DNA of 41,041 bases from a virus, in the IMG/VR virus record IMGVR_UViG_3300027907_000025, positions 1 to 41,041 of that record, one strand, 5' to 3'. A program made the translations under genes and the position numbers. The notes beneath the pieces are model-generated. The model did not search any database and was not told the origin of the DNA. It saw nothing but the letters and a program-made list of their open reading frames with translations. Positions 4,651-18,609 of the stretch are shown piece after piece. Positions within the stretch are counted from its first letter, which is position 1. The number at the start of each line of letters is the position of its first letter.

Positions 4651-4881
4651 GTGACTTTTTCAACGTCCCGATTCAAAATCACTGTCAAATGCACTGATGG
4701 AGATGACTTTACCTGGTATGCAACCGGGCCTAATGTCAAGGGATCGCCAAAAGAAACAGCAAAATACTTGACACAATTGGCGAAGCGGTGGTCGGATCGG
4801 ATTGTTACCTATGAAGTCGCATCAGAAGAAGATTACCAAAAATACCGGACTGCGACTGAATTAATTATCAATGGGGGGTAG
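4651..4881 (+). CDS. Hypothetical early protein (GTG start)
   Basis: 76 residues from GTG 4651, with AAGGAG upstream. Mixed alpha/beta, no recognised motif. The TAG stop (4879-4881) is itself the first three bases of the next promoter's -35 element, which shows how tightly this region is packed. Confidence 0.72.
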   Translation: MTFSTSRFKITVKCTDGDDFTWYATGPNVKGSPKETAKYLTQLAKRWSDRIVTYEVASEEDYQKYRTATELIINGG

Positions 4882-4907
4882 ACACGACGTCCTGACTGTG
4901 GTATACT
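4879..4907 (+). promoter_or_regulatory. Sigma-70 promoter with extended -10
   Basis: -35 TAGACA 4879-4884, 17-base spacer, -10 TATACT 4902-4907 preceded by CTGTGG. The first 8 of its 17 spacer bases are close to those of the promoter at 7067. The expected start near 4914 coincides with the first base of a 9-bp hairpin. Confidence 0.88.
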
Positions 4908-4913
4908 GGGGGT

Positions 4914-4934
4914 CCAGGCGCAGAGTGCGCTTGG
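4914..4934 (+). other. 5'-terminal mRNA hairpin
   Basis: CCAGGCGCA (4914-4922) pairs with TGCGCTTGG (4926-4934) around GAG: nine pairs, one of them G-U. It sits at the expected 5' end of the transcript from 4879, so it may protect the RNA or act on elongation. Confidence 0.6.
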
Positions 4935-4954
4935 GCTCCTTCAATAGTGGTAAT

Positions 4955-5242
4955 ATGACAAGATTCAATGATCCTCCCGGAGACATGGATCCCTTGCTGG
5001 TGAGAGCGATTGAAGTTCTTACCACCACTGCAAATATATTTGATATTAAACCCTGGAAAGAAATCATGAAGCACAAATCTGAAGTAGTTGGCGGCGTTCT
5101 CGTAAGCAAGACACAACGTGTGATCACGCACGCTCAGTTGATTGGTGAAGCACCCCTGTCTGAGGGACTTGACAGCACCCCCACTGACATGGTATACTCG
5201 GAGAGTGATCAATCCGATCACCCACCCGTGAAGGATTCTGAA
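4955..5242 (+). CDS. Possible N-terminal extension or alternative long form of the 5243 gene
   Basis: The frame of the next gene is open upstream to ATG 4955 (and ATG 4985), giving ~96 extra residues with a plausible helical segment (LLVRAIEVLTTTANIFDIKP, then ITHAQLIG). No stop separates it from the 5243 frame, so transcripts from 4879 could yield a 311-residue protein. However, a separate promoter and hairpin lie inside this stretch (5169-5221), and the 5243 start gives the same length as the paralogue at 453. The start is uncertain; neither ATG has a good Shine-Dalgarno. It could be a domain fused in frame or a leader. Confidence 0.4.
5169..5221 (+). promoter_or_regulatory. Promoter inside the long frame, followed by a hairpin
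   Basis: -35 TTGACA 5169-5174, 18-base spacer, -10 TATACT 5193-5198 with ATGG before it. GTGATC-AATCC-GATCAC at 5205-5221 forms a perfect 6-bp stem six bases after the -10. This repeats the promoter-plus-hairpin plan seen elsewhere. It would make an mRNA for the short form starting at 5243. Confidence 0.75.
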
Positions 5243-5890
5243 ATGACTGAAGTGACCACCGAACGACAAGTCTCCCCCGAGCAACAAGCCAAGGAAGAGG
5301 CTGTTAAAGCCAAGATTGCGGCTAAGGAAGCTAAGATCAAGGAAGCTGCCGATCGCAAGGCGCAGGCTGAAGCAGAACGTCTAGCCAAGGCTGAACAACG
5401 TGCAAAGGATGTGGCTGAGGCGCGTGCTAAGAAATCCGAAGCAGAACAAGAACGAGTTGAACAACTCAAGGCTGAGTCTGAAGAAAAGGGCGAAAAGCGT
5501 ACCTACTTTGGTCCGATGATTCACCTGGCAGAGCGTGCCAAGAATGGCCACTATGTCAAGTCGGCACTTGGCCAACTGCGCTCTGATGACGACCTGGCTC
5601 GAGCACTTGACTCCGTGCGTCCAGCAAACGTAGTCAAGCTGGCAATGGTTCTCCTGAACGATACCACGAATCGTTATGAACATCTCAACATTGGCCAACA
5701 GTCGATGAACTATCGTAACAAGATGCGTGGGGCCATTAAAGCGGGCACCTTTACCATCGACGATGTGAAGCGTGTGCGGGATGAAGAGGGGCTGACGGAG
5801 GAAGTCGAACCCAAGAAGGAACGTGTTAAGGCCGAAGCAGGCGTGCTCCCGGCTGAAGGCACCGTCCAGACTGGAGAAGCTCAAACCTGA
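5243..5890 (+). CDS. Early protein with coiled coil and GQQSMNYRN domain (paralogue B)
   Basis: 215 residues from ATG 5243, preceded by AAGGA (5231-5235). Residues ~10-90 are a long Ala/Lys/Glu-rich coiled coil. The C-terminal ~115 residues match the protein at 453-1115: YFGPM at the domain start and LNIGQQSMNYRNKMRGAIK near the end. I chose this start because it gives the paralogue's length and has its own promoter and ribosome binding site, although the frame is open back to 4955. The tail (VEPKKERVKAEAG) is charged. The function is unknown. The coiled coil replaces the acidic Pro-rich head of paralogue A, so the pair shares a core with different partner regions. Confidence 0.8.
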   Translation: MTEVTTERQVSPEQQAKEEAVKAKIAAKEAKIKEAADRKAQAEAERLAKAEQRAKDVAEARAKKSEAEQERVEQLKAESEEKGEKRTYFGPMIHLAERAKNGHYVKSALGQLRSDDDLARALDSVRPANVVKLAMVLLNDTTNRYEHLNIGQQSMNYRNKMRGAIKAGTFTIDDVKRVRDEEGLTEEVEPKKERVKAEAGVLPAEGTVQTGEAQT

Positions 5891-5960: not shown

Positions 5961-6713
5961 ATGATATCAATGCACGTGGGCAATCTTATTATGAGTCATT
6001 CGCCTAATGTGGCATTACAGTTCTCTGGTGGACGTGATTCCCTGGCCATGTTATTGTTGTTGCAGAATTATTGGGAGGACTTGACTGTATACCACTTAGA
6101 TACCAATGACGAATACCCTGAGACGTCTGAATTGGTTGCCAAGATGCGTGCAGTTGTGCCCCGATGGAATGATGTGCAATCCTCGTCCCCCTCGGTGAGG
6201 CGTGTATACGGTCTGCCGTCTGACCTGATTCCACAGTCGACGTCATTCCTTGGAGTCCCAGATCGAATTAAGATTATTGACCGGAACATCTGCTGTTACC
6301 ACTCAATCATGCTTCCAATGCACGAAGCGATGGTCCAAGATAAAATTACACTGATTCTGCGCGGCCAGCGCAGTAAGGATTACCCCAAATCTCCGGTAAG
6401 GAATCAGCAGACGGTCGCGGGTATGACTATCATCTACCCGGTCGAGGATTTGCATGATTTGGCAATAAATGCAGTAGTATCTAAGCAGGCTCCCAAGTTT
6501 GGTATTATGGACCCACTTAAGTATTATAATGAGGGTTTGACGTCATCCCCAGACTGCATGGGTTGCACGGCTTGGCTCGAGCACAAAGCATACCATTATC
6601 TCAAGAAGTTTTATCCAAGGAGGGCAGAGGGAGTCAGGACAGATATGATTAAGATTTATGACGCCGTGACAAAGGAATACAATAGGTTACTCCATGCGAA
6701 GGAAGTTCTATGA
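5961..6713 (+). CDS. PP-loop ATP pyrophosphatase of the PAPS reductase/DndC type with 4Fe-4S cysteines
   Basis: 250 residues from ATG 5961 after AAGGAG. The ATP-binding PP-loop is SGGRDS (22-27). Cys111-Cys112 followed 87 residues later by CMGC (199-202) is the CC...CXXC pattern that binds a 4Fe-4S cluster in APS reductases and related proteins. The C-terminal ECGLH catalytic tail of sulfonucleotide reductases is absent, so a plain PAPS/APS reductase is unlikely. The fold and cysteines also suit adenylation or sulfur-transfer enzymes of nucleic acid modification. Such CysH-like proteins are common in phages, with their role mostly unproven. It sits in the promoter-5169 operon and overlaps the next gene (ATGA at 6710). 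Confidence 0.85.
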   Translation: MISMHVGNLIMSHSPNVALQFSGGRDSLAMLLLLQNYWEDLTVYHLDTNDEYPETSELVAKMRAVVPRWNDVQSSSPSVRRVYGLPSDLIPQSTSFLGVPDRIKIIDRNICCYHSIMLPMHEAMVQDKITLILRGQRSKDYPKSPVRNQQTVAGMTIIYPVEDLHDLAINAVVSKQAPKFGIMDPLKYYNEGLTSSPDCMGCTAWLEHKAYHYLKKFYPRRAEGVRTDMIKIYDAVTKEYNRLLHAKEVL

Positions 6714-7063
6714 CTGATAAGGGTATGATCCCAGGCAGCAGCATGCATATCTTGATGCAAGAATACAGCGCAGAAGCGATGTTCGAAGTCAAGGGTTATG
6801 CTGACCATCTACGCGAATTGGCAGAAGCAATTGACAAGGACTTGGCTCATAACGTTAATAAGGGACAACTTTTAAGTCCTTTGGTTGTGATTGATATGAT
6901 CAAGTCTTTGATGCAATGTCATCACAACAGTCTTGCATCATTGATTGATAACACCAAGCCAGGGGAACCATTGCTAGAACTGATTCAAGGGGAGTTGAAA
7001 TCAATGAGAGATGATGAGCTTAAGAAGCTCCTCCTTGATCTTGCAGCTGCATTGAAGCAATAG
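6710..7063 (+). CDS. Helical early protein (paralogue of 2972-3214)
   Basis: 117 residues, ATG 6710 overlapping the preceding stop. The central part (YSAEAMFEVKGYADHLRELA to SLASLI) matches the 80-residue protein at 2972-3214. This copy has an N-terminal extension and ~40 extra C-terminal residues ending in a Leu-rich helix (MRDDELKKLLLDLAAALKQ). All-helical; family unknown. Position directly after the PP-loop gene suggests co-expression but not necessarily joint function. Confidence 0.75.
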   Translation: MTDKGMIPGSSMHILMQEYSAEAMFEVKGYADHLRELAEAIDKDLAHNVNKGQLLSPLVVIDMIKSLMQCHHNSLASLIDNTKPGEPLLELIQGELKSMRDDELKKLLLDLAAALKQ

Positions 7064-7066
7064 GAC

Positions 7067-7095
7067 TAGACACGACGCTCAGACTGTGGTATACT
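7067..7095 (+). promoter_or_regulatory. Sigma-70 promoter with extended -10
   Basis: -35 TAGACA 7067-7072, 17-base spacer, -10 TATACT 7090-7095 preceded by CTGTGG. A short hairpin GCGCA-ATAG-TGCGC follows at 7116-7129. It drives the genes from 7148. Confidence 0.87.
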
Positions 7096-7147
7096 AGAGG
7101 TTCTGATAGTGACCCGCGCAATAGTGCGCATTTTAATGGAGGCCATA

Positions 7148-7513
7148 GTGGCAGAAGTTCAAGAGGATAAGATAGTGCGTCAACACCTGACGGTTAAACA
7201 GAATCACGTTCTGAATGAGCTGATTTTGGCAGAGTTCACGAGTTCAGGGTTGTCGTTGGAAGCATTTTCCACGATGGCGTCCGAGAGACTCGGGTTCAGG
7301 GTCAGCAAGACCCACATCTCGACCCGAATTGAGGCATGGGAAATCCCAATCAACCGACCCGTGCCAGCCCCGAAGCCGAAGAAGAATGGCGTGAATACGG
7401 CCATGCTGTTGGCTCACGAGCAGCGTATCAATGACCTGGAAGAGAAGGTCAAAGTGATGCAGGGATGGATCAACACGACCTTCCCCACCTATGGTGGAAA
7501 GGCGATTAAGTAA
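7148..7513 (+). CDS. Putative helix-turn-helix regulatory protein
   Basis: 121 residues from GTG 7148, chosen because GGAGG sits at 7138-7142; in-frame starts at 7109 and 7136 lie in the hairpin leader. The middle (SLEAFSTMASERLGFRVSKT followed by HISTRIEAWEI) has the layout of a helix-turn-helix, with a predicted recognition helix around SKTHISTRI. A C-terminal coiled coil (HEQRINDLEEKVKVMQGWI) would permit dimerisation. It is a candidate early transcription regulator, able in principle to read one of the palindromes in this genome. No named family can be assigned by eye. Confidence 0.75.
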   Translation: MAEVQEDKIVRQHLTVKQNHVLNELILAEFTSSGLSLEAFSTMASERLGFRVSKTHISTRIEAWEIPINRPVPAPKPKKNGVNTAMLLAHEQRINDLEEKVKVMQGWINTTFPTYGGKAIK

Positions 7514-7520
7514 TAGTCCA

Positions 7521-7536
7521 GCCCCCCTCGGGGGGC
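7521..7536 (+). terminator. GC-only hairpin, weak terminator or RNA barrier
   Basis: GCCCCCC (7521-7527) pairs with GGGGGGC (7530-7536). There is no T tract after it, so it is not a classical intrinsic terminator. It lies between the genes ending at 7513 and starting at 7555. Confidence 0.4.
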
Positions 7537-7554
7537 GTATATAGGAAAATAGTG

Positions 7555-7836
7555 ATGGCCACATTTGACAATTTTACCTCAGTCCAGCACATTATTGATA
7601 CTGGTGGCGAAGAATATTGCAAGCCGGACCCGGAGACAGGTTACGCAGAACCTCCAGTCATTCGAATTGTGGAATACACAAATAGCTTTGGTGGCAAGTG
7701 TTGGGGCGTGGTCTGGGAGAACGATGGTGATCCATTGCGCTATGAGCGTCCCACGGAGTTTGTTCAGAACCCCAAATTGATCTGGGAGCATCCCAACTAC
7801 AAGATGGGCACTGTTGTGGTCTTAAGGAGGAGATAA
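7555..7836 (+). CDS. Hypothetical early protein
   Basis: 93 residues from ATG 7555, with AGGA eight bases upstream; GTG 7552 immediately before would add one residue. Mixed composition with aromatic residues (GGKCWGVVWENDGDP). No recognised motif. The last codons carry the AAGGAGGAG that serves the next gene, whose start overlaps this stop (TAATG). Confidence 0.72.
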   Translation: MATFDNFTSVQHIIDTGGEEYCKPDPETGYAEPPVIRIVEYTNSFGGKCWGVVWENDGDPLRYERPTEFVQNPKLIWEHPNYKMGTVVVLRRR

Positions 7837-8030
7837 TGGACGTCTTGAACCTTTTGAATGAACGTGTGGAATATCTTGTGAAGAGGGGGAAATATGTTGC
7901 AGCGGATGCGATACGCCAAGCTATCAAGCACATCCACGAGGTTCAGAAGGCAGAGGCTGAAAACGCCAAAGCTCTTGCGCCCCAGAAGGACCTTATTTGG
8001 GATGGTGACGAGGGCAATTCACCCGATTAA
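7836..8030 (+). CDS. Small helical early protein
   Basis: 64 residues from ATG 7836, overlapping the previous TAA by one base, with a strong AAGGAGGAG upstream. Two helices (VLNLLNERVEYLVKRGKYVA and AADAIRQAIKHIHEV), acidic tail. No family is assigned. It is followed closely by the helicase gene. Confidence 0.72.
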   Translation: MDVLNLLNERVEYLVKRGKYVAADAIRQAIKHIHEVQKAEAENAKALAPQKDLIWDGDEGNSPD

Positions 8031-8065
8031 TCGGCTTCGTGCATGGGGGTTGACTAAGGTATAAT

Positions 8066-9832
8066 ATGTCTAGCATTCTTTCTCGAGAAATGAAGGTGGA
8101 TTATGAACCCAAGGCCAAGCGCCTTGTGGTTCAAGCCCCTTTTCACATGGTTGATATTTGTCGCAATTTTCCTTCCAGGCGGTTTGATCCAAAGCGCAAA
8201 GTATGGGTCGCACGTCTGGTACGTCCTAATGTGGAGTACCTCAAGAGTCTGAATTACTGTGATATCAAGTATAGCAAGGCGGCATCGGATGCGATTACCA
8301 ATTTCGAAATTCTTGTCGCTCCGCCGAGGATCATTCCATTCCCGGTTGATACTTATATCGATCACTTTGACAATAAGGACCCATACCCGCACCAAAGCAA
8401 GATGCTGGACCTATCATGGGGTTTGCGATCTTCAGCCTGGTTTTGCGAGATGGGTACTGGTAAGACTTTTGCAGCAATACACTACGCCCAGGCACTATAC
8501 TTGGCAGGTGAGATTGATGCGGTTGCCATTGTCTGTCCGGCTACATTACGTCGGACTTGGATGAAGGAACTGAAGAAGTACGCATCCATTCCATATGATT
8601 TTAGGATGCACGAGACAAAGGCTCCGTGGCTGAATGGGTTCTACTCCCCTAAAGACACGAAGCATATGAAGATACTGGCCATCTCGGTCGAGGGTCTGGG
8701 CATCAGCCAGCAGTCATATGATTCCGTGTGTGGATTTTACCCAGGACGTCGAGTGTTGACGATATGTGATGAATCATCAAGAATCAAGAACCCAGATGCT
8801 GTTCGCACTAAGCGTACTATTGAGTTGGGAGGAGCTAGTGAGCGGAGAATTATACTCAACGGTACTCCCATCGCGTTGGGCATACAAGATTTGTGGTCAC
8901 AATATGAATTTCTTGATCCAAACATTATCGGGTCTGGAGATTATTGGGCTTTCAAGACAAGATATATTGTCTATGGCGGGTTTGAAAATCGACAAATCAT
9001 TGGATACCAGAACGTAGATGAATTGATGGATTTAATACGTCCATACACGTGCGAATTCAGGAAGAAGGATGTACTCCAAGACCTACCACCTAAAATCCCT
9101 AAGACGGTCTTTGTCCAAGCGTCCAAAGACCAGAAGGTATTATTTCACCAAATCTTGGCAGGGAAAGCCACAGATACGTCTGAAATCCGGATTAAGTCTG
9201 ATAACGTCCTCGAGAAAATATTACGTCTCAGACAAGTGGTTGGTGGATTTGTTCCATCCCAAGAAGTGGTTCCGAGCGGAGATGAAAAGACAGTTCTTAA
9301 GCCGTTTAAAATAAATCCTAAATTGGACACCCTACTCGAGCTAATTGAAGAGCATCGTGACGGATCGAAATTCATTATTTGGGCGGCATTTGTTCATGAG
9401 ATTGAAGCCATCGCTAATAAACTCCGAACCAAATACGGAGACGCAGCCGTGGCAACATATTATGGGGCAACCGATCAAGATGAACGGTCCCGAATTGAGG
9501 ACGCTTATTGCCGATCACCGGAACTTAGATTTTTTATTGGAAATCCGACGGCAGCTGGATTGGGACTCACACTTGTCTCCGGAGAAAGCGACATTATGGT
9601 CTATTACTCTGGAACCAACGCATATATTGATAGAGCGCAATCAGAGGATCGAGCACACAGAATCGGTCAGCGCAATTCGGTCGTCATCATTGATCTTGTC
9701 ATGGAAGATTCTGTTGACGAAGCAATTCAGGAATCAATTGTACACAAAACTAATGTCGACACGTACGTGAAGGATCAAATTTCGAAGGGTGTCAAGATGG
9801 TAGACGTCTTGACTGGAGAACTGGAGGAATAG
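8066..9832 (+). CDS. SNF2-type DEAD/DEAH-box DNA helicase/translocase
   Basis: 588 residues from ATG 8066, with AAGG seven bases upstream. N-terminal region FDPKRKVWVAR resembles the HARP-type domain that precedes SNF2 motors. Walker A is MGTGKT (129-134), motif II is DESS (235-238, with CDESSRIKN), and the C-terminal lobe has the SNF2 signature AHRIGQRN (about 530-537). It is a superfamily 2 ATP-driven translocase on double-stranded DNA, likely used in replication, fork remodelling or stripping host proteins. A helicase in this role is also part of known podoviral Z-genome phages. A TATAAT directly before the start codon is discussed under rejected items. Confidence 0.92.
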   Translation: MSSILSREMKVDYEPKAKRLVVQAPFHMVDICRNFPSRRFDPKRKVWVARLVRPNVEYLKSLNYCDIKYSKAASDAITNFEILVAPPRIIPFPVDTYIDHFDNKDPYPHQSKMLDLSWGLRSSAWFCEMGTGKTFAAIHYAQALYLAGEIDAVAIVCPATLRRTWMKELKKYASIPYDFRMHETKAPWLNGFYSPKDTKHMKILAISVEGLGISQQSYDSVCGFYPGRRVLTICDESSRIKNPDAVRTKRTIELGGASERRIILNGTPIALGIQDLWSQYEFLDPNIIGSGDYWAFKTRYIVYGGFENRQIIGYQNVDELMDLIRPYTCEFRKKDVLQDLPPKIPKTVFVQASKDQKVLFHQILAGKATDTSEIRIKSDNVLEKILRLRQVVGGFVPSQEVVPSGDEKTVLKPFKINPKLDTLLELIEEHRDGSKFIIWAAFVHEIEAIANKLRTKYGDAAVATYYGATDQDERSRIEDAYCRSPELRFFIGNPTAAGLGLTLVSGESDIMVYYSGTNAYIDRAQSEDRAHRIGQRNSVVIIDLVMEDSVDEAIQESIVHKTNVDTYVKDQISKGVKMVDVLTGELEE

Positions 9833-9836
9833 GGGA

Positions 9837-9895
9837 TAGACAGGCGCGTGCCCCTGTGATATACTCGGGGTATAGCCGATGGGCGCTCAGGCGCC
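9837..9895 (+). promoter_or_regulatory. Sigma-70 promoter followed by a hairpin
   Basis: -35 TAGACA 9837-9842, 17-base spacer, -10 TATACT 9860-9865 with extended TG. GGCGC-TCAG-GCGCC at 9882-9895 is the downstream hairpin. It drives the genes from 9919 up to the terminator at 11538. Confidence 0.85.
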
Positions 9896-9918
9896 TTCAA
9901 TAGGATCATGGAGGATTT

Positions 9919-10272
9919 ATGGCAAATAGTCAGCCAATTGTTTGGGTGATCAAAGAGCAATTTAAACAGGGTGCCGGTGGCCCTGAGCCGATTGATTATA
10001 CCCCTGCAATGCAATATGGTGATGTACATTTTATTACCGAATTTGACGTCCCAACCGGACCCAGTAAGGCTGTTCGTGAGTCTTGGTTTGAGGGTGTTGC
10101 AAAATTCTGTGACGACTACGATCCTAAGAGGGATTTCGTAGTGTTGACAGGATCACCGACCGCACTATTCTTGGTTGGTGCAATGATGGCCGATAAGGGG
10201 GCTCTCCCGCTTCGGTTGTTGATATGGCGGAGGGAAGAGAACCGCTACATTCCCTTCGAGACTGATCTGTAA
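9919..10272 (+). CDS. Conserved phage protein of unknown function
   Basis: 117 residues from ATG 9919 with GGAGG upstream. Alpha/beta composition: VHFITEFD near the start of the core and FVVLTGSPTALFLVGAMMAD, which reads like a strand-loop-helix nucleotide- or metal-binding unit. No Walker A pattern. First gene of an operon that precedes the Z cassette. The function is not assigned. Confidence 0.78.
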   Translation: MANSQPIVWVIKEQFKQGAGGPEPIDYTPAMQYGDVHFITEFDVPTGPSKAVRESWFEGVAKFCDDYDPKRDFVVLTGSPTALFLVGAMMADKGALPLRLLIWRREENRYIPFETDL

Positions 10273-10287
10273 TAGGAGTATAGTATT

Positions 10288-10692
10288 ATGACAATGGAAG
10301 TACTAAGGGACCTGTGTATTAAAATGCAGTCTCTTCAGGACGTTAAGAATGAGCTTGAGGATCAATTGAAGGTCATCAATGCGAATTTGGATGAGGTACG
10401 TCTGAAGAAGATCCCTGACTTGATGATAACGCTCGAGCTTAGGACGGCAACTTTTCACGGCATCGGGCGTGTCCAGCTGGCTGAAGATGTGTACGCATCT
10501 ACTCGAGAGGGTAAGAAGGTGGAAGCCATGCAGTGGCTCCGTGACACCGGGTATCCGGACATGATCATCGAGACTTACAACGCTTCATCTCTCAAGGCAC
10601 TCTTCAGACGTCAATTGAAGGAGGGCATTGACATACCAGATGATATCTTTAGTGTGACGCCGTTTACCCGTGCGTCAATTGTGAAAGCATAA
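10288..10692 (+). CDS. Conserved phage protein with N-terminal coiled coil
   Basis: 134 residues from ATG 10288, with TAGGAG upstream. Residues ~5-45 are a coiled coil (MQSLQDVKNELEDQLKVINA). A middle strand region follows (LELRTATFHGIGRVQLAED) and then a helical end (SSLKALFRRQLKEG). Proteins of this plan are frequent among replication genes of phages, and I would guess a replication or recombination accessory, without a name. Confidence 0.75.
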   Translation: MTMEVLRDLCIKMQSLQDVKNELEDQLKVINANLDEVRLKKIPDLMITLELRTATFHGIGRVQLAEDVYASTREGKKVEAMQWLRDTGYPDMIIETYNASSLKALFRRQLKEGIDIPDDIFSVTPFTRASIVKA

Positions 10693-10705
10693 TGTCACGT
10701 CGATT

Positions 10706-10735
10706 AGGGCCGACCGACATTTTTAACCCTGCCCT
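10706..10735 (+). promoter_or_regulatory. Structured leader motif with TTTAACCCT loop (copy 2)
   Basis: AGGGC (10706-10710) pairs with GCCCT (10731-10735). As in copy 1 at 5910-5936, the loop ends in TTTAACCCT against the 3' strand of the stem. It precedes ATG 10749 by 13 bases. Confidence 0.45.
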
Positions 10736-10748
10736 TTGAAAGAGTAAT

Positions 10749-11510
10749 ATGGCTGATAGCAAGAGTGAAGTTTCTGTGGCCCCTAAGCAGGGTGCTCTGG
10801 CATTTACGGACGCAGTTCCGGATTGGGTCAAGCATGACTCAGCACGTGGATCGGAGGAAGTGGGTTCAAAAGACCTGATTCTGCCCCGATTGGAGATTGT
10901 CCAGCCCCTTTCACCCATCAGGGACGAAGACCCCGATGCCTTAGAAGGACACATGTTCAATAGCGCGACACACGAAGTTTTGGGTGAGTCCGCGATCATT
11001 GTTCCTATTTACTTTCGCACTGAATATATCGTCTGGAAGGACAAAGATTCTGGCGGTGGTTTCTTTGGTTCATTCCTCAGCGAGGGTGAAGCAGTCCAGC
11101 GGATGCGGAAAGCGGTTTTGCAGGAAGGTGAACAGGAAGAACTGCTCGAAGTGGTGGACACGCCAGTCCATTATTGTCTCCGGGTTCGCGACGATGGTTC
11201 TACCGAACAGATCGTCATATCTATGGCCAAATCCAAGGCCAAGGTGTCCCGTAAGTGGAACTCCGTGATCCAAATGGGTGGCGGTGATCGGTTCTCGAGA
11301 GCATACCGGGTTGGTACCTTCAAGGATAAGAACAAGAAGAATCAGACATTCTTCAACTTTACCGTGATGCCGGTTGGTTTCTGTCCCAAGGCTTTGTTCG
11401 ATGAAGCTGAACGGACCTACAAGCTCTTCAAGGATAGCAACGTTCAAGCGGACCATGCGTCTGCTGGCGGCGAATCCAACAACGGTCATGCAGACCGTGG
11501 TGAAATCTAA
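10749..11510 (+). CDS. Conserved phage protein, candidate single-stranded DNA-binding protein
   Basis: 253 residues from ATG 10749, with AAAGAG close upstream. It has an acidic N-terminus, a beta-rich core (SAIIVPIYFRTEYIVWKDKD and HYCLRVRDDGSTEQIVISM) and a flexible Gly/Asn/acidic tail after ~235 (SAGGESNNGHADRGEI). The folded core plus acidic tail and abundance of aromatic strands suit an OB-fold ssDNA-binding protein. No other candidate SSB is visible in a genome that has its own polymerase, primase and helicase. This is inference from composition and context, not motif identity. A strong terminator follows. Confidence 0.7.
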   Translation: MADSKSEVSVAPKQGALAFTDAVPDWVKHDSARGSEEVGSKDLILPRLEIVQPLSPIRDEDPDALEGHMFNSATHEVLGESAIIVPIYFRTEYIVWKDKDSGGGFFGSFLSEGEAVQRMRKAVLQEGEQEELLEVVDTPVHYCLRVRDDGSTEQIVISMAKSKAKVSRKWNSVIQMGGGDRFSRAYRVGTFKDKNKKNQTFFNFTVMPVGFCPKALFDEAERTYKLFKDSNVQADHASAGGESNNGHADRGEI

Positions 11511-11587: not shown

Positions 11588-11860
11588 GTGAGGCACAAGC
11601 GTGTTTTCAAAGACTGGGATAAGTCCCCGTCTTCATGTAAGACCATCAAACCTGGTGAAGAGGTATGTACCGATTATACCGGAGACATTACATATCACAC
11701 AGTAATCAAGTGTATCCCTGCTAGGTCTGAGTCCGGTATTGTTTTAAGTGTATCCCCTGCTGTTAAGGGGAGTTATAGTAACCAGTTAGACGCTGCCTGG
11801 TTCCGTAGTGCTGAAGTAGGAACTGAATGGCACCGTCTCCGTGAAATAGCGGAGGAATAG
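11588..11860 (+). CDS. Hypothetical protein heading the Z operon
   Basis: 90 residues from GTG 11588. The upstream GGAAG is only moderate as a ribosome binding site. Contains KPGEEVCTDYTGDITYHTVI and SGIVLSVSPAVKG, a small beta domain by pattern. No known family. It overlaps DpoZ by one base (TAGTG at 11858-11862) and its 3' end supplies DpoZ's GGAGG, so it is translationally coupled to the polymerase. Confidence 0.72.
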   Translation: MRHKRVFKDWDKSPSSCKTIKPGEEVCTDYTGDITYHTVIKCIPARSESGIVLSVSPAVKGSYSNQLDAAWFRSAEVGTEWHRLREIAEE

Positions 11861-13695
11861 TGGAATTTCCAAGATTGGATGGCCATGCTATTGCCCTAGA
11901 TTATGAATCCAATGGGCTGAAGTATTGGCGAGATGACTTTCAGGTTATAGGCGTATCAATAGCGACCGCGGATAGTGAATGGTATTGGGATATTAGAACT
12001 ACCCCCAATGTGGGTGCCTGGTTGAGAGACGTACTTCCTCGACGCCAGATATATTCCCACTTTGCGCAATATGAATACCAGTGTACCAGATTGTTTGGAA
12101 TAGACCCCAGATCAATTAACTGGTTCTGCACGATGACGGGCGATTGTCTTCTGTTCGAGAAGCATCTAACTTATGACCTTCATTCGGTTGCGGTACGTCA
12201 TGGGATTCCTTCTCGGAAGGCACAACTCCAGGAGGAGATTCGTTTAGCCATTGGCTGTCGGACGGTCGAGGAAGCCATGCGCCGGCTCGAGGAAGCACCC
12301 CCAGAGCTGGTCGCTATGTATGGTGCATCTGACACTCGGATATGTTACGACGTGGCGACTAAGCTGCTCCCCAGGATGCAAGAAGAGGACTTGATGCAGG
12401 TAATGGAGCTTGAGATGCAACTCATGCCCGTCCTGGCGGATATGTCTTGGGGTGGAGTACGTGTAAATCTGGAAGCGTGTGAACCTGCTATTAAGAAGCT
12501 GGATGAGAAAGAACTGATACTCCAACGCGAGGTTGGGGAAATAACCGGGAATGTGAAATTCAATGTCAACAGTACCCCCCAAATCAGAGAATTCTTTAAG
12601 CCCGAGTCCATCAACAAGTACCAATGGCGACTCATTGATGGAACCCTCGTCCTCCCCACTAAGACAGGGAAAGGTCCAAGTATCGATCAGACAGCACTCA
12701 GAAATTGTAAACATCCGCTTGCGACAAAAATACTTGATCTCCGGAAGACTATTAAATTACGAGATACGTTTATTCGTGGCCACATTATTGGAAATGCTGA
12801 CGACAGGGGATATGTCCATACTACCTTTAACCAGACTCGAAACGATGCTGATGCCGGAGTTGTCACGGGACGTTTATCAAGCACGGACCCTGCTCTTCAA
12901 CAAATTACCAAACGGGATAAAGAAAACGCAGCAATTCTACGCTCAATGTTCATTCCAGACGATAGATGTGACTGGGGGTGTTTCGATTATAATCAGGTGG
13001 ACTTTAGGTGTGCAGCACATCTCATTAACGACCCGGAAATTATTGCCGCATATGCGGCAAATCCGAAACTTGATTACCATCAAGTGGTATCCGAAATGAC
13101 GGGGATTCCCCGTAATGCCCCCTATGCTGGAGCACCCAATACGAAGCAGATTAACCTGGGATTGGCATTTGGAGCAGGGGCGGGTAAACTGTCATTCATG
13201 ATGGGTATGGAATATACCATGACAGAATGGAAGGGTAAGATGACGTATCAACCTGGCCCCAAAGCCAGAGAGATATTTGATCTCTACCATGCTAAGCTGC
13301 CTGGTGTCAAGAATTTCATGAGACGCGCTGAAGACGTCGCAAAGGCCACTGGATACGTACGTACTGCAATTGGACGGAGACTTCGCTTAGGACGTGGCGA
13401 AGCACATAAGGCGGCTGGGCTATTATTTCAAGCATATGCGGCTGATTTACATAAGACAGGACTGGTCCGATCCGATCGATTGATTCGAGAAGAGAAGATT
13501 CCCATGCGGATGATGCTTAGCGTCCATGATGAAATGGATACTTCAATAGAGAAAGGACTTGACCAACAGACGATAGAACATGTGAGACACATATATAGTG
13601 ACTTCAACTCAGAGAATAGTCCGATTCGGATGAGAGTACCCATTCTTTCATCCGCATCAATAGCTGATAATTGGTATCTGGCATCAAAGGATTGA
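11860..13695 (+). CDS. dpoZ: Family A DNA polymerase of the Z-genome type (DpoZ)
   Basis: 611 residues from GTG 11860, GGAGG upstream. An N-terminal 3'-5' exonuclease has DYE (14-16) as Exo I and YGASD as Exo III; the Exo II site reads AQYEYQ rather than a canonical N...D. The polymerase domain has motif A DYNQVDFR (376-383, usually DYSQIELR), an O helix TKQINLGLAFG (428-438) with Leu and Phe at the positions that are Phe762 and Tyr766 in E. coli Pol I, and motif C VHDE (555-558). There is no 5' nuclease domain. In characterised Z phages this polymerase copies T with Z in place of A. The identification as DpoZ rests on family and on the PurZ, MazZ and DatZ genes immediately downstream. Confidence 0.9.
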   Translation: MEFPRLDGHAIALDYESNGLKYWRDDFQVIGVSIATADSEWYWDIRTTPNVGAWLRDVLPRRQIYSHFAQYEYQCTRLFGIDPRSINWFCTMTGDCLLFEKHLTYDLHSVAVRHGIPSRKAQLQEEIRLAIGCRTVEEAMRRLEEAPPELVAMYGASDTRICYDVATKLLPRMQEEDLMQVMELEMQLMPVLADMSWGGVRVNLEACEPAIKKLDEKELILQREVGEITGNVKFNVNSTPQIREFFKPESINKYQWRLIDGTLVLPTKTGKGPSIDQTALRNCKHPLATKILDLRKTIKLRDTFIRGHIIGNADDRGYVHTTFNQTRNDADAGVVTGRLSSTDPALQQITKRDKENAAILRSMFIPDDRCDWGCFDYNQVDFRCAAHLINDPEIIAAYAANPKLDYHQVVSEMTGIPRNAPYAGAPNTKQINLGLAFGAGAGKLSFMMGMEYTMTEWKGKMTYQPGPKAREIFDLYHAKLPGVKNFMRRAEDVAKATGYVRTAIGRRLRLGRGEAHKAAGLLFQAYAADLHKTGLVRSDRLIREEKIPMRMMLSVHDEMDTSIEKGLDQQTIEHVRHIYSDFNSENSPIRMRVPILSSASIADNWYLASKD

Positions 13696-13696
13696 T

Positions 13697-14812
13697 ATGC
13701 AAACTCATCATATTGATATGATCATGGACTTCCAGTTTGGAAGTACTGGGAAAGGTCTGTTAGCGGGGTATCTTTCTAAGCGGGGGGATTATGACACCAC
13801 AGTTTGTGCATTTGGAACAAATGCCGGACATACGTATATTGATAAGTCCCGTGAGTTGCACGTCATGACGCAGCAACTCCCCACTTCTGCCGTGGCATCC
13901 CCTACGGTCAAGAAGATTCTAATTGGTCCTGGGGCTGCGATTCATATTCCAACCCTGATGGACGAAATCAACAAATATGAAAAGTATCTTAAGGGTAAGA
14001 CCATTCTTATCCACCCTCATGCCGCAGTTGTAACCGATGAACACCAGTCGGTTGAGAAGTTTAGGCAGATGGGTAAGATTGGGAGTACTACCAAGGGTGT
14101 CGGCCAGGCATATATCCAACGTCTCCAAAGGGACCCCGAACATATGAACGTCATCGCGGGCAGGAAGAGGGAATTGTACCCGATGGTTGCGACAGTCCAA
14201 GAATATCGTGAAGCGCTCGAAACAGCGAATTCGGTCATTGTGGAAGGGTCCCAGGGGTTCTCGCTATCCATGTATCACGGGTTCTATCCGTATGTTACCT
14301 CGAGGGACGTCACACCCTGGCAGATTGCGGCTGATTGTGGATTGCCATTCTCCATCGCCCCTTATATTCATATCTGGGGTACTGTTCGAACTCTTCCGAT
14401 TCGGGTCAATAATCGGGATGGTACTTCTGGTCCTGGTTACGATGATCAACGTGAGCTTGAATGGCAGGAACTCGGGATCGAGCCTGAGCTGACGACTGTC
14501 ACTAAGCTGCCCCGCAGGATATTCACATTCAGCCAGGAACAAATCACTGATGCCTGCTGGCATTGCTCCCAATACTGGCATACGAATATCTTCCTGAACT
14601 TTGCGAACTATCTCGAACGTAATGGGATTCAGGATGTTATTCAACAAATCGAGACTCCACGTCCCTACTGCCTTAATCCCCCACATGTGAAACTCATTGG
14701 GGTTGGTCCGGATGATTCAGAAGTTTTGGAGCGCAATAATGACGTCTATAAACCAGTTAGCCTCGGAAATACGGAAACAAGCGGACAGGTTGTTTCCACA
14801 TCGGACCGATAA
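13697..14812 (+). CDS. purZ: PurZ, 2-aminodeoxyadenylosuccinate synthetase
   Basis: 371 residues from ATG 13697, AAAGGA upstream, one base after the DpoZ stop. A PurA homologue: the nucleotide loop is QFGSTGKG (13-20), where host PurA has QWGDEGKG, so the catalytic Asp is Ser16. NAGHT (42-46) keeps the phosphate-transfer His45. STTKGVGQAYI and EGSQGFSLSMYHGFYPYVTS correspond to the GTTGRGIGPAY and EGAQG...YPYVTS blocks of PurA. Replacement of this Asp distinguishes PurZ from PurA in studied Z phages, where the enzyme joins Asp to dGMP with ATP to begin dZTP synthesis. Host PurB and kinases then complete dZTP. The 3' end overlaps MazZ by 74 bases. Confidence 0.95.
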   Translation: MQTHHIDMIMDFQFGSTGKGLLAGYLSKRGDYDTTVCAFGTNAGHTYIDKSRELHVMTQQLPTSAVASPTVKKILIGPGAAIHIPTLMDEINKYEKYLKGKTILIHPHAAVVTDEHQSVEKFRQMGKIGSTTKGVGQAYIQRLQRDPEHMNVIAGRKRELYPMVATVQEYREALETANSVIVEGSQGFSLSMYHGFYPYVTSRDVTPWQIAADCGLPFSIAPYIHIWGTVRTLPIRVNNRDGTSGPGYDDQRELEWQELGIEPELTTVTKLPRRIFTFSQEQITDACWHCSQYWHTNIFLNFANYLERNGIQDVIQQIETPRPYCLNPPHVKLIGVGPDDSEVLERNNDVYKPVSLGNTETSGQVVSTSDR

Positions 14813-15020
14813 CTCAATGTACCTGAAGGTATATGAGGAGGTTGCAGAATTGATACAATGCAGGGGTTCATCCTCAGAGCTTGCAGACTTGATAATCATG
14901 ATTTTGGATTTCGGTGCGCGCCGGAATTATGATATTGAAACTGTGGTTCGTGAGAAAATGATCTTAAATGATCAACGTGAATGGAGAGAAGTTGATGGCG
15001 TGATGCACCATATTGAATAG
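14739..15020 (+). CDS. mazZ: MazZ, MazG-like (d)GTP pyrophosphohydrolase
   Basis: 93 residues from ATG 14739, with TTTTGGAG upstream inside purZ; the frame is open further upstream but without a binding site. The MazG-type metal site is visible as EEVAE (Glu33, Glu34, Glu37) followed by ELAD (Glu47, Asp50), the EExxE...ExxD pattern. In Z phages the DUF550/MazZ protein cleaves dGTP (and GTP) to dGMP and diphosphate, feeding PurZ. Placement between purZ and datZ fits. A 10-base gap separates it from datZ. Confidence 0.92.
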   Translation: MTSINQLASEIRKQADRLFPHRTDNSMYLKVYEEVAELIQCRGSSSELADLIIMILDFGARRNYDIETVVREKMILNDQREWREVDGVMHHIE

Positions 15021-15030
15021 GAGTCCAATA

Positions 15031-15615
15031 ATGCACTCTATAATGAACAAGCCTTCCAATATTCTTGATTCTGTCGAAAGTACTCATTATGCTTACGACG
15101 ACCCGGCACTGGAAACTGTCATGCGAATCCACGCCGTGAAGCGGTGGCACATGATTGAAACAAATCGTTCCCAGACTTTAGCCGAGCATAGCGCAAACGT
15201 TGCCGCGTTGGTATATCTCTGTGCCAGTGAATCAGGCGGATATTTTGGGTCACCAGAACATGCCTGTACGGTGTCGCTATTTCATGACATTCCGGAGGTC
15301 TTCACTGGGGATATTCCGTCTCATACCAAGCAATATTTGAGAGGGGTTGAGGATCTGGAATACCGGGTCACCCCCTCTATATTTACTTTTGAAGAGGAAC
15401 CTTTGAATTTGAACAGATTGATCAAGTTGTGTGACCTGTCAGATGGGATACGTTTCATTAGACTTCATGGTGTTGACCACACCGCACGTCATGCAAGGGA
15501 TCAGTTGGTTCACAAATATCATGAACACAAGATGTTAGCAGATAGTGAATGGCCGGAAGAAGTATATAACATGACAACCCGGCGACTGAATTTCTACGCG
15601 TGGGAGGATCATTGA
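15031..15615 (+). CDS. datZ: DatZ, HD-domain dATP triphosphohydrolase
   Basis: 194 residues from ATG 15031, TAGGAG upstream. HD-domain metal ligands appear as AEHS (His53), HD (85-86) and CDLSD (Asp135). VKRWHMIETNR and FHDIPEVFTGDIPSHTK match the YfbR/DatZ pattern, including the Trp39 region that stacks on the base in the family. In Z phages DatZ removes dATP (stepwise or to deoxyadenosine plus triphosphate), so that dZTP is used instead of dATP. The start downstream of 15013 is chosen for its binding site. It overlaps the next gene by four bases. Confidence 0.92.
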   Translation: MHSIMNKPSNILDSVESTHYAYDDPALETVMRIHAVKRWHMIETNRSQTLAEHSANVAALVYLCASESGGYFGSPEHACTVSLFHDIPEVFTGDIPSHTKQYLRGVEDLEYRVTPSIFTFEEEPLNLNRLIKLCDLSDGIRFIRLHGVDHTARHARDQLVHKYHEHKMLADSEWPEEVYNMTTRRLNFYAWEDH

Positions 15616-16064
15616 ATCCTGAAATGCGTCTCCGCCATCGGTTGAAAAATTCGATGGCGGGGGAATGGTTGCTCACATGGCATGAGAACGGGGGCATTCA
15701 GCCCGGTGTCCCCGACTTGTCATATGTGCTATTGAGTCCTGGTCACGAAACCGGATGGCTCGAGCTTAAAGCAACAGACGATATTCTTGGGAACAAGCCC
15801 AAGAAATTATTCAAACTTGAATCACATCAGCATCAATGGATTGACGCTCACTGGTACTTGATACCAGTTCACATCCTATGCGCTGTTGAAGATATCTGGT
15901 ACCTAATCCCTGGGGTTCATCACGAAAGTATTGATGAACCTTTGACCGCCGAATCTCTCAGGAGTTTGTCAGTAATTGGGTTTCACTACGCTGATTGCTC
16001 ACAAATCCTTACCATAGCACTGAAGTCTGCCACGAGGAGAGATCGTGAATCAAAATTTTCCTGA
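15612..16064 (+). CDS. PD-(D/E)XK nuclease, possibly resolvase-like
   Basis: 150 residues from TTG 15612, which overlaps the datZ stop (TTGA). GGAGG at 15603-15607 supports this start; GTG 15600 is an alternative. The catalytic pattern is PGVPD (31-35) followed by WLELK (49-53), that is PD...ExK of the restriction-endonuclease-like/VRR-NUC superfamily. These cut branched or single-stranded junction DNA in many phages. Position in the Z operon next to the primase suggests a role in replication or resolution of Z-DNA, but degradation of host A-containing DNA is also possible. Substrate specificity is unknown. Confidence 0.82.
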   Translation: MNPEMRLRHRLKNSMAGEWLLTWHENGGIQPGVPDLSYVLLSPGHETGWLELKATDDILGNKPKKLFKLESHQHQWIDAHWYLIPVHILCAVEDIWYLIPGVHHESIDEPLTAESLRSLSVIGFHYADCSQILTIALKSATRRDRESKFS

Positions 16065-18609
16065 ATATAAGGAAACAAAGCCATCACTAATAATTCAGGC
16101 GACTCTTAACATCTTCTTTGAATCTGGAGACGTATTTGAGGTACGCATCCCAAAGACTAAATATGGGACAATTAGTGGTAATTTCAATGACCCGGCGATC
16201 GCCGCCCTAGCCATTACAAAGGAGAATGGAAAGCATCAAGCCGTCTACATGACGGTGAACCCAATTCAACCGGCACTCATAGCACGTAACAATAATAAAT
16301 TTGAATATGGGTGCCAAACCACTACGAACGATGCGGAGATTTTAACCAGACGTTGGTTTTTAATAGACCTGGACCCAAGTCGACCTGCAGGGATATCATC
16401 CACAGACGGAGAACTAGCGCTCGCGTTTGCTCGAGCCCAGGATGTAAAGGACTATCTTACGTCTATAGGTTGGCCGGACCCTATTGAAGCGGTATCTGGA
16501 AATGGACACCACTTAATATATCCCTGCAATGAACCAAATGACGAGAACTCACGAATAGATTTCGAGTTCGCCACGAAGATGTTGTCTTCCATCTTCACTG
16601 ATGACCGAGTAATCCTAGATACAACGTCCTGGAATGCTTCGAGAGTTTGGAAGATATATGGGACGATAAGCGCAAAGGGGAGTTCCACAGAAGAACGTCC
16701 CCACCGCGTTGCCATGATTACACGTCTACCTAACGAGAAGGTCTTTGTTGATCGTGGTTTGATTGATACGCTTGCTGCTCCCCTTCGCGATGCCAAGTCA
16801 GAAGAATATAAAGACATGACTGGTGAATACATCGCGGACATGGTGAAGTGGCTCTCGGACAGAGGAATCACAGTTACAGATGGCCCCCATCCATTGTATG
16901 GGAATGAGGGGAAGAAATGGAGAATTACTCGGTGTCCCTTCAATCCGCAGCATGAGAAGCCCATTGTTGGATTGGTACGAAATAAGCCACTGTTCCGATG
17001 CCTTCATAATTCATGCTCCGCATTCCATTGGAAGGAATTTCGTGAGAAGGTGGACCCGAACTACAAAGACCCGGATACCATCTTTGACCGTCTCCGGGAA
17101 TGGTGTGAGAGTGATCTAGAGGATATAGATAGCGAGCTGGTGGAGACTGCTTGCCGTCTGGGGCGGACTGGCACCAATAAGTTAATTATAGGACTCAAAA
17201 AAGTCGTCCCAAAGACACGCTTAGCATATCTGAGTGATAAGCTCCGTGAAGCGCATAACAGATTCATCAAAGAGACTAAAGGAGAGTACAACGAACGTGG
17301 TAATATTATGGGGGTTATAAACCGGACTCGAACTATGCAAGAAGCTGGTGAGATGCCCATGTATTGGATGGCTGATTTTGATGGAAGGATTCGGGTGGGT
17401 AAGGTCGGGGATATTAAATGTCCACGTCTCACCACAACCGATGAAATCTTATTGATGGCTCAGTTCCACAAGATGGGTGATCCTTGGGTGAAACAGAGCC
17501 TTGCAGCCCAGGCTATTGAAATCTTGGCAGCGAACTACATCGTGAACCCACTCGAGCATTACCTAAAACAGTTCGAATGGGACGGGACACCACGTATTCA
17601 TAACTGGCTCTCCCAATATATGGGGGTTGAGGATAATGAATATACTCGAGTTGTTGGACGGAAATGGCTGATTTCGATAGCCGCTCGAGGAATGAGTCCT
17701 GGGTGCCAGGCTGACTATATGCTTATTTTGGAAGGAAAACAGGGTATTGGAAAGTCACGTGCACTCCGAATCCTAGGGGGTGATTTCTACAGTGAATATT
17801 TGGGCGGATTGAAGGGGAACACGCACAAGGATATGGTATCTGCTATCGTTGGTAAACTGATCGTAGAACTAGCTGAGCTGGGAACTATCAAGCATTCTGA
17901 TATGGAAGTGCTGAAGGGCATCCTAACCGTGACCAGGGATGACGTCCGACTGGCCTACGAACGGGACACGCGACCTTACCCCAGGACGTGCGTCTTTGCA
18001 GGTACTACTAACGAGGTTGGCCAGAGATATATTGCAGACGCCACGGGAGCACGTCGATTTTGGCCAGTTCACGTTCAGAGAAGAATCAATTTACAAATAC
18101 TCGAGAGCGTGCGGGATCAGTTACTCGCGGAAGCAATCCATGCATATGATTCCGGGGAGGATTGGTGGCCGGATGACGCACTCGAAGAAGTATTTGAAGA
18201 GGAACAAGGGCTACGTCAAACAACAGCCGAGAGTTCAGACCCTTGGTTCGAACGTATCAAGATGGCCCTCATTGACCCAGATACTTATAACAATAAATGC
18301 TTCTACATTCGGCCAGAATATTCTAATGGACTTCCAATTCCTGGTGAATATCGAGTCCGAGTAGGACGTGTTGATTATATTCTTGGAATTATATGTGGAG
18401 TTGAAACAGGGCAACAAAATGGAGGTCATTTAGATCGGGTTCGAAAAATATTGGCCAGGCTCGGATTTGAGCGACGCAGACACCCGAGTGGAAGAAAATG
18501 GCTTGGGAAAGGATATGTTAGTGATTGTACCCGAGAGAAGATCGCGGATATCTGGCCAATTATGATTGCAACTTTGGACCTAAAGACACTATCAGAGATT
18601 AAGGAATGA
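16045..18609 (+). CDS. PrimPol-VapE bifunctional primase and helicase
   Basis: 854 residues from GTG 16045, with GAGGAGA upstream and a 20-base overlap with the nuclease gene. N-terminal archaeo-eukaryotic primase/polymerase domain: DLD (Asp108, Asp110) and SGNGHH (His155/156). Zinc motif about residues 298-325 (CPFNPQH...FRCLHNSC). Helicase domain of the virulence-associated E family (VapE) from ~500: Walker A GKQGIGKS (564-571), followed by VELAELG and an arginine-rich sensor region (TRPYPRTCVFAGTTN). It primes and unwinds during phage DNA replication. Primase-polymerases of this type accompany DpoZ or replace it in known Z phages. The final stop is immediately followed by the minus-strand terminator. 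Confidence 0.93.
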   Translation: MNQNFPEYKETKPSLIIQATLNIFFESGDVFEVRIPKTKYGTISGNFNDPAIAALAITKENGKHQAVYMTVNPIQPALIARNNNKFEYGCQTTTNDAEILTRRWFLIDLDPSRPAGISSTDGELALAFARAQDVKDYLTSIGWPDPIEAVSGNGHHLIYPCNEPNDENSRIDFEFATKMLSSIFTDDRVILDTTSWNASRVWKIYGTISAKGSSTEERPHRVAMITRLPNEKVFVDRGLIDTLAAPLRDAKSEEYKDMTGEYIADMVKWLSDRGITVTDGPHPLYGNEGKKWRITRCPFNPQHEKPIVGLVRNKPLFRCLHNSCSAFHWKEFREKVDPNYKDPDTIFDRLREWCESDLEDIDSELVETACRLGRTGTNKLIIGLKKVVPKTRLAYLSDKLREAHNRFIKETKGEYNERGNIMGVINRTRTMQEAGEMPMYWMADFDGRIRVGKVGDIKCPRLTTTDEILLMAQFHKMGDPWVKQSLAAQAIEILAANYIVNPLEHYLKQFEWDGTPRIHNWLSQYMGVEDNEYTRVVGRKWLISIAARGMSPGCQADYMLILEGKQGIGKSRALRILGGDFYSEYLGGLKGNTHKDMVSAIVGKLIVELAELGTIKHSDMEVLKGILTVTRDDVRLAYERDTRPYPRTCVFAGTTNEVGQRYIADATGARRFWPVHVQRRINLQILESVRDQLLAEAIHAYDSGEDWWPDDALEEVFEEEQGLRQTTAESSDPWFERIKMALIDPDTYNNKCFYIRPEYSNGLPIPGEYRVRVGRVDYILGIICGVETGQQNGGHLDRVRKILARLGFERRRHPSGRKWLGKGYVSDCTREKIADIWPIMIATLDLKTLSEIKE

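Follow-up and report, generated by a model that had tools for sequence, protein, structure and literature searches.

Known Z systems and the scheme considered here

The biochemistry of the 2-aminoadenine (Z) system has been published for S-2L and phiVC8 (PMC8342488, PMC8065100, PMC8599892). A second enzyme type, PurZ0, occurs in Gordonia phage Archimedes and Arthrobacter phage Wayne, and the phages that carry it are distinguished from PurZ phages by their gene sets, dutZ/dmtZ marking the former (PMC12884076). One sentence in the latter paper swaps the donor preferences of PurZ and PurZ0, but its introduction has ATP for PurZ. In the scheme applied below, MazZ would convert dGTP to dGMP, PurZ would join dGMP and aspartate, with ATP or dATP, into N6-succino-2-amino-dAMP, and a host lyase and kinases would carry the succino product on to dZTP. 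DatZ would remove dATP, and DpoZ would polymerise dZTP opposite T.

A complete Z-cluster in a divergent tailed phage

The window, which is the whole 41,041-nucleotide stretch analyzed, is a 41-kb IMG/VR record of a tailed phage infecting bacteria, with terminase, portal, major head protein, and tail genes elsewhere on the minus strand. The Z-cluster in it is complete and consists of the four-gene set already known, dpoZ (11860 to 13695), purZ (13697 to 14812), mazZ (14739 to 15020), and datZ (15031 to 15615), all on the plus strand. The genes are tightly packed: purZ starts 1 base past the end of dpoZ, the start of mazZ lies within the 3′ end of purZ, and ten bases separate mazZ from datZ. The genes and their residues were identified here, and we infer the reactions from characterised homologues. 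The phage very probably has Z in place of A, and the replacement would in all likelihood proceed through the MazZ/PurZ/DatZ/DpoZ scheme.

A DNA-level search of annotated phages with the replication region (11860 to 16860) gave no match. At the protein level, the best PurZ from a cultured phage showed 42.5% identity when 93% of the query was covered, or 45% when 80% was covered. IMG/VR contained 62 related loci, and all four genes were found in the fetched DNA of 51 of them, many of the remainder being fragments. PurZ from the two nearest contigs (L002 and L003) was 60 to 63% identical. Given these values, with cultured phages not exceeding 45% in the matched region, the locus is a new and divergent representative of the known PurZ/Z-cluster system, and with it the Z-genome phages gain a divergent lineage that is uncultured. 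A quick tree of 63 rows, with SH-aLRT support only, agreed with this placement. The window, L002, and L003 formed a three-member clade (SH-aLRT 100) within a PurZ clade of 37 rows that includes phiVC8, S-2L, SH-Ab 15497, and others (SH-aLRT 98), and PurZ0 and the Asp-type PurA fell apart from it. Since a control search with an archaeal PurA model yielded no alignable sequences, the tree was built without archaeal PurA.

Two other observations concern the rest of the window. First, positions 5961 to 6713 encode a PAPS-reductase-like protein (Pfam, 1.7e-8) for which a phmmer search over the related loci gave no match. Second, the proteins encoded at 453 to 1115 and 4871 to 5890 have a common C-terminal stretch, GPM...NRYEHLNIGQQSMNYRN and GPM...NKYAHLNQGQQSMNYRN, respectively, and are apparent paralogues.

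PurZ and its family assignment

The purZ frame runs from ATG to TAA and encodes 371 amino acids with the N terminus MQTHHIDMIMDFQFGSTGKG; the product is the expected N6-succino-2-amino-deoxyadenylate synthase (dGMP plus Asp plus ATP/dATP), an assignment based on family models, alignment, tree, and predicted fold. The initial annotation held that a loop QFGSTGKG, with Ser16, replaces QWGDEGKG of PurA and that the other PurA motifs are retained. Both points were borne out. An alignment of 70 PurZ, PurZ0, and PurA sequences sets Ser16 (codon AGT, 13742 to 13744, plus strand) on Asp13 of Escherichia coli PurA and S23 of S-2L PurZ, and NAGHT (residues 42 to 46), GSTTKGVG (129 to 136), and EGSQG (183 to 187) are all present. 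The Ser16 column held Ser in 67 rows, Asp in two, and a gap in one, a fragment. Ser was found in 63 of the 63 PurZ-type rows with a residue there and in four PurZ0 rows, and Asp only in the PurA of E. coli and that of one faecal phage. A sequencing error is unrealistic as an explanation, because two base changes are needed to turn AGT into an Asp codon.

Family models led to the same assignment. Pfam recognized only the PurA superfamily (Adenylsucc_synt, E value of 1.2e-29), PHROG gave 2-aminooxy adenylosuccinate synthetase (PHROG 1211, 1.5e-70), and the NCBIfam PurZ model NF038379 scored 300.6 bits (1.1e-89), a thin margin over its cut-off of 300; the sister protein from L002 scored 291. The top PDB sequence matches were phiVC8 DgsS/PurZ with dGMP and ATP and S-2L PurZ, and tblastn with the window PurZ matched 204 phage records. 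The Pfam and NCBIfam PurZ matches and these 204 records mean that the motif-bearing frame did not arise by chance. The Pfam match would also fit a viral PurA acting on IMP to yield ordinary adenylosuccinate and so boost the AMP pool. This is highly improbable, since Asp13 is lost, scores with the PurA equivalog models are far under their cut-offs, and DpoZ, MazZ, and DatZ are all present. To our knowledge, the latter set is known from dZTP metabolism only. Judged by its sequence, the product of 13697 to 14812 is a canonical phage PurZ, though a distant member of the family.

Predicted fold and ligand pockets

An AlphaFold model, for which 38 sequences from the window and IMG/VR were aligned, had a pLDDT of 82 and a pTM of 0.85, with very low confidence in the C-terminal tail of about 16 residues. 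Its TM scores (query normalized) were highest against phiVC8 PurZ with dGMP and ATP (0.82 to 0.83), followed by S-2L PurZ (0.79), PurZ0 (0.73), and archaeal PurA (0.72). When the published contacts of S-2L PurZ (PMC8342488) were transferred by alignment, the residues of the dGMP pocket (S16, N42, A43, T131, R145, Q186, Y199, T201, R236, and V237) were the same in S-2L and phiVC8, as was the aspartate loop T266-T267-V268-T269, and R273 was identical to the S-2L contact. The sole differing contact was V200, at a position that varies within the family. According to the S-2L structure paper, the serine lies beside the 2-amino group and the valine equivalent to V237 presses on the ribose 2′ position (PMC8342488). 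By analogy, Ser16 would take the place of the catalytic Asp next to the 2-amino group of dGMP, and we infer that dGMP is the substrate of the window PurZ.

The phosphate donor can be addressed in the same way. An ATP-type pocket was defined as N, F, and N/Q at S-2L positions 305, 306, and 308, and the window has N301-F302-x-N304, the same as phiVC8 and SH-Ab 15497, so ATP/dATP use is expected. PurZ0 rows have T/S-M-x-D and E. coli PurA has T-K-x-D. Crystal structure work on PurZ0 reportedly gave GTP as the PurZ0 donor and ATP as the PurZ donor. These residues bear on whether the protein could be of the PurZ0 type, acting on dGMP with a Ser catalytic site and GTP as donor. The serine is common to both, but the window loop is GSTGKG rather than GSEAKG, the pocket is NFxN, the protein falls outside the PurZ0 clade, and datZ, mazZ, and a phiVC8-like polymerase stand in place of dutZ/dmtZ, which makes a PurZ0-type enzyme very unlikely. 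Pocket residues, tree, and neighbor genes led us to reject the PurZ0 and PurA readings alike.

The enzyme had been described as functional rather than degenerate in appearance, and the predictions agree, with the fold, the ligand-contact residues, and three partner genes intact. That it is an inactive remnant is scarcely credible. Such decay would be in keeping with the distance from cultured relatives, whose identity in the matched region does not exceed 45%, and with nothing else, whereas the frame is open, the contact residues are kept, the predicted fold is confident, and two other contigs conserve the protein at 60 to 63%.

The serine is not by itself diagnostic of PurZ

The Asp-to-Ser change had also been taken as the diagnostic difference of PurZ. 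The protein is indeed a PurZ; the serine alone, however, is not diagnostic, because it is common to the GTP-using PurZ0 and to bacterial plasmid and Bacilli paralogues that lack a Z-cluster. PurZ is set apart by Ser together with GSTGKG, an ATP pocket of the NFxN type, the match to the family model, the position in the clade, and the dpoZ-mazZ-datZ neighborhood. In a published survey (PMC12884076), 147 of 147 phage PurZ-group sequences had Ser, and four archaeal sequences had either Ser or Gly. Our scans of bacterial genomes and plasmids found Ser-type PurA paralogues with no Z-cluster nearby. Bacilli/Tenericutes MAGs (L087 to L091) encode paralogues with a GSCGK[GA] loop, Ser standing for Asp, that form one tree clade, and the DNA fetched for them contained no Z-cluster genes. 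Rhizobial, methylobacterial, and sinorhizobial plasmids encode others with Q[WFY]GSEGKG. The change in plasmid proteins outside any Z-cluster bears on the origin of PurZ. PurZ-like Ser-type proteins were also seen in proteobacterial MAGs (L085 and L086), one on a 994-kb contig; no match to DpoZ, MazZ, or DatZ lay less than 6 kb away.

Some of the plasmid paralogues belong to a conserved and apparently undescribed module. In eight rhizobial/methylobacterial plasmids (L099, positions 6822 to 11099; L100; L102; and L104 to L108), a kinase-like AAA_18 domain is fused to the Ser-type PurA, and a DUF7002 gene follows in all eight. An HD/YfbR-like hydrolase, whose Pfam match is weak and falls below gathering, and a protein of about 455 amino acids of no known family both occur in six of the six annotated plasmids, conserved at 71 to 82%. 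The module is a PurZ-like and DatZ-like pair outside phages, and the one fusion scored gave a higher score with the archaeal-type PurA model than with the PurZ model. Several modules adjoin defense genes, namely Gabija (L099), SIR2/DUF87/AbiE (L105), and AbiJ plus RelA/SpoT (L107); a defense role, suggested by location, is only a guess. Searches of the literature on PurA-like defense proteins and on DUF7002 found nothing relevant. Two further plasmids differ in content. On a Sinorhizobium medicae plasmid (L101, 7995 to 10057), the gene that comes after a Ser-type PurA paralogue gives a weak dCTP-deaminase-like match. A Rhizobium leguminosarum plasmid (L103, 7363 to 15711) has a cluster of folE, Asp-type PurA, PurB, QueE, QueC, IMP dehydrogenase, and nitrile hydratase, which we take to resemble a toyocamycin/sangivamycin-type 7-deazapurine pathway.

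Polymerase and pool-control enzymes

The dpoZ product is a phiVC8-like family A DNA polymerase with a 3′-5′ exonuclease, as judged by NF038380 and signature residues. It scored 740 bits with the NCBIfam DpoZ model NF038380 (cut-off of 500) and is 62 to 63% identical to its counterparts in L002 and L003. The features compared, taken from PMC8599892, were the helix O insertion and L455, F459, and G548 (phiVC8 numbering) as marks of a phiVC8-like DpoZ; the window protein has L433, F437, G520, and the helix O insertion (insertion 2), and the third of its fingers insertions does not reach the length seen in phiVC8. A preference for dZTP would be expected from these features.

The features of MazZ and DatZ were compared with those in PMC8065100. 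MazZ, probably a dGTP-to-dGMP pyrophosphohydrolase of the MazZ-1 type, matched a PHROG pyrophosphatase (1.7e-7, with the frame taken from 14718) and keeps the metal ligands E33, E34, E37, E47, and D50 and the guanine contacts I53 and D57 (S-2L I56 and D60), with Gln14 where the other MazZ-1 proteins in the comparison have Trp15. DatZ, probably an HD-domain dATP triphosphohydrolase, matched PHROG dATP triphosphohydrolase (2.3e-21) and Pfam YfbR-like (2.1e-14). It keeps the metal ligands H53, H85, D86, and D135 and the phosphate contacts R38, K100, and K132 (reference R19, K81, and K116). Among its base and sugar contacts, W39 (W20) is kept, I22 is conservatively replaced by Met41, as in ZP6, and S-2L Pro79 is nonconservatively replaced by His98, as in L002 and L003. 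His98 and Met41 of DatZ and Gln14 of MazZ mean that specificity could be shifted. If it were shifted in the lineage of the window, L002, and L003, whose members share the DatZ change from P79 to His and in which the window also shows the MazZ change from W15 to Gln, A might be only partly replaced, or replaced through a differently balanced nucleotide pool, though we regard this as improbable. As a set, the four enzymes should help in comparing the specificities of PurZ and DpoZ and in work on synthetic Z-DNA.

Comparison with known systems

Set against the characterized enzymes, the window PurZ has the fold, the catalytic-site Ser, the dGMP/ATP pocket residues, and the TTVT loop in common with phiVC8 PurZ (DgsS) and S-2L PurZ, although sequence identity is only about 37 to 43%. 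With the phiVC8-like Z-phages (phiVC8, BUCT555, SH-Ab 15497, PMBT28, and ZP6), the locus has the same gene set, the purZ-mazZ-datZ order, and the DpoZ clade in common. It differs from them in three ways. First, dpoZ adjoins purZ without an intervening primase or SSB gene. Second, a VapE-type helicase/primase is encoded downstream of datZ. Third, DatZ and MazZ carry base-contact substitutions. The likeness to PurZ0 of Archimedes and Wayne lies in the Ser for Asp and the dGMP substrate, whereas the donor pocket, the GSEAKG loop, the polymerase type, and the pool-control genes set the two apart.
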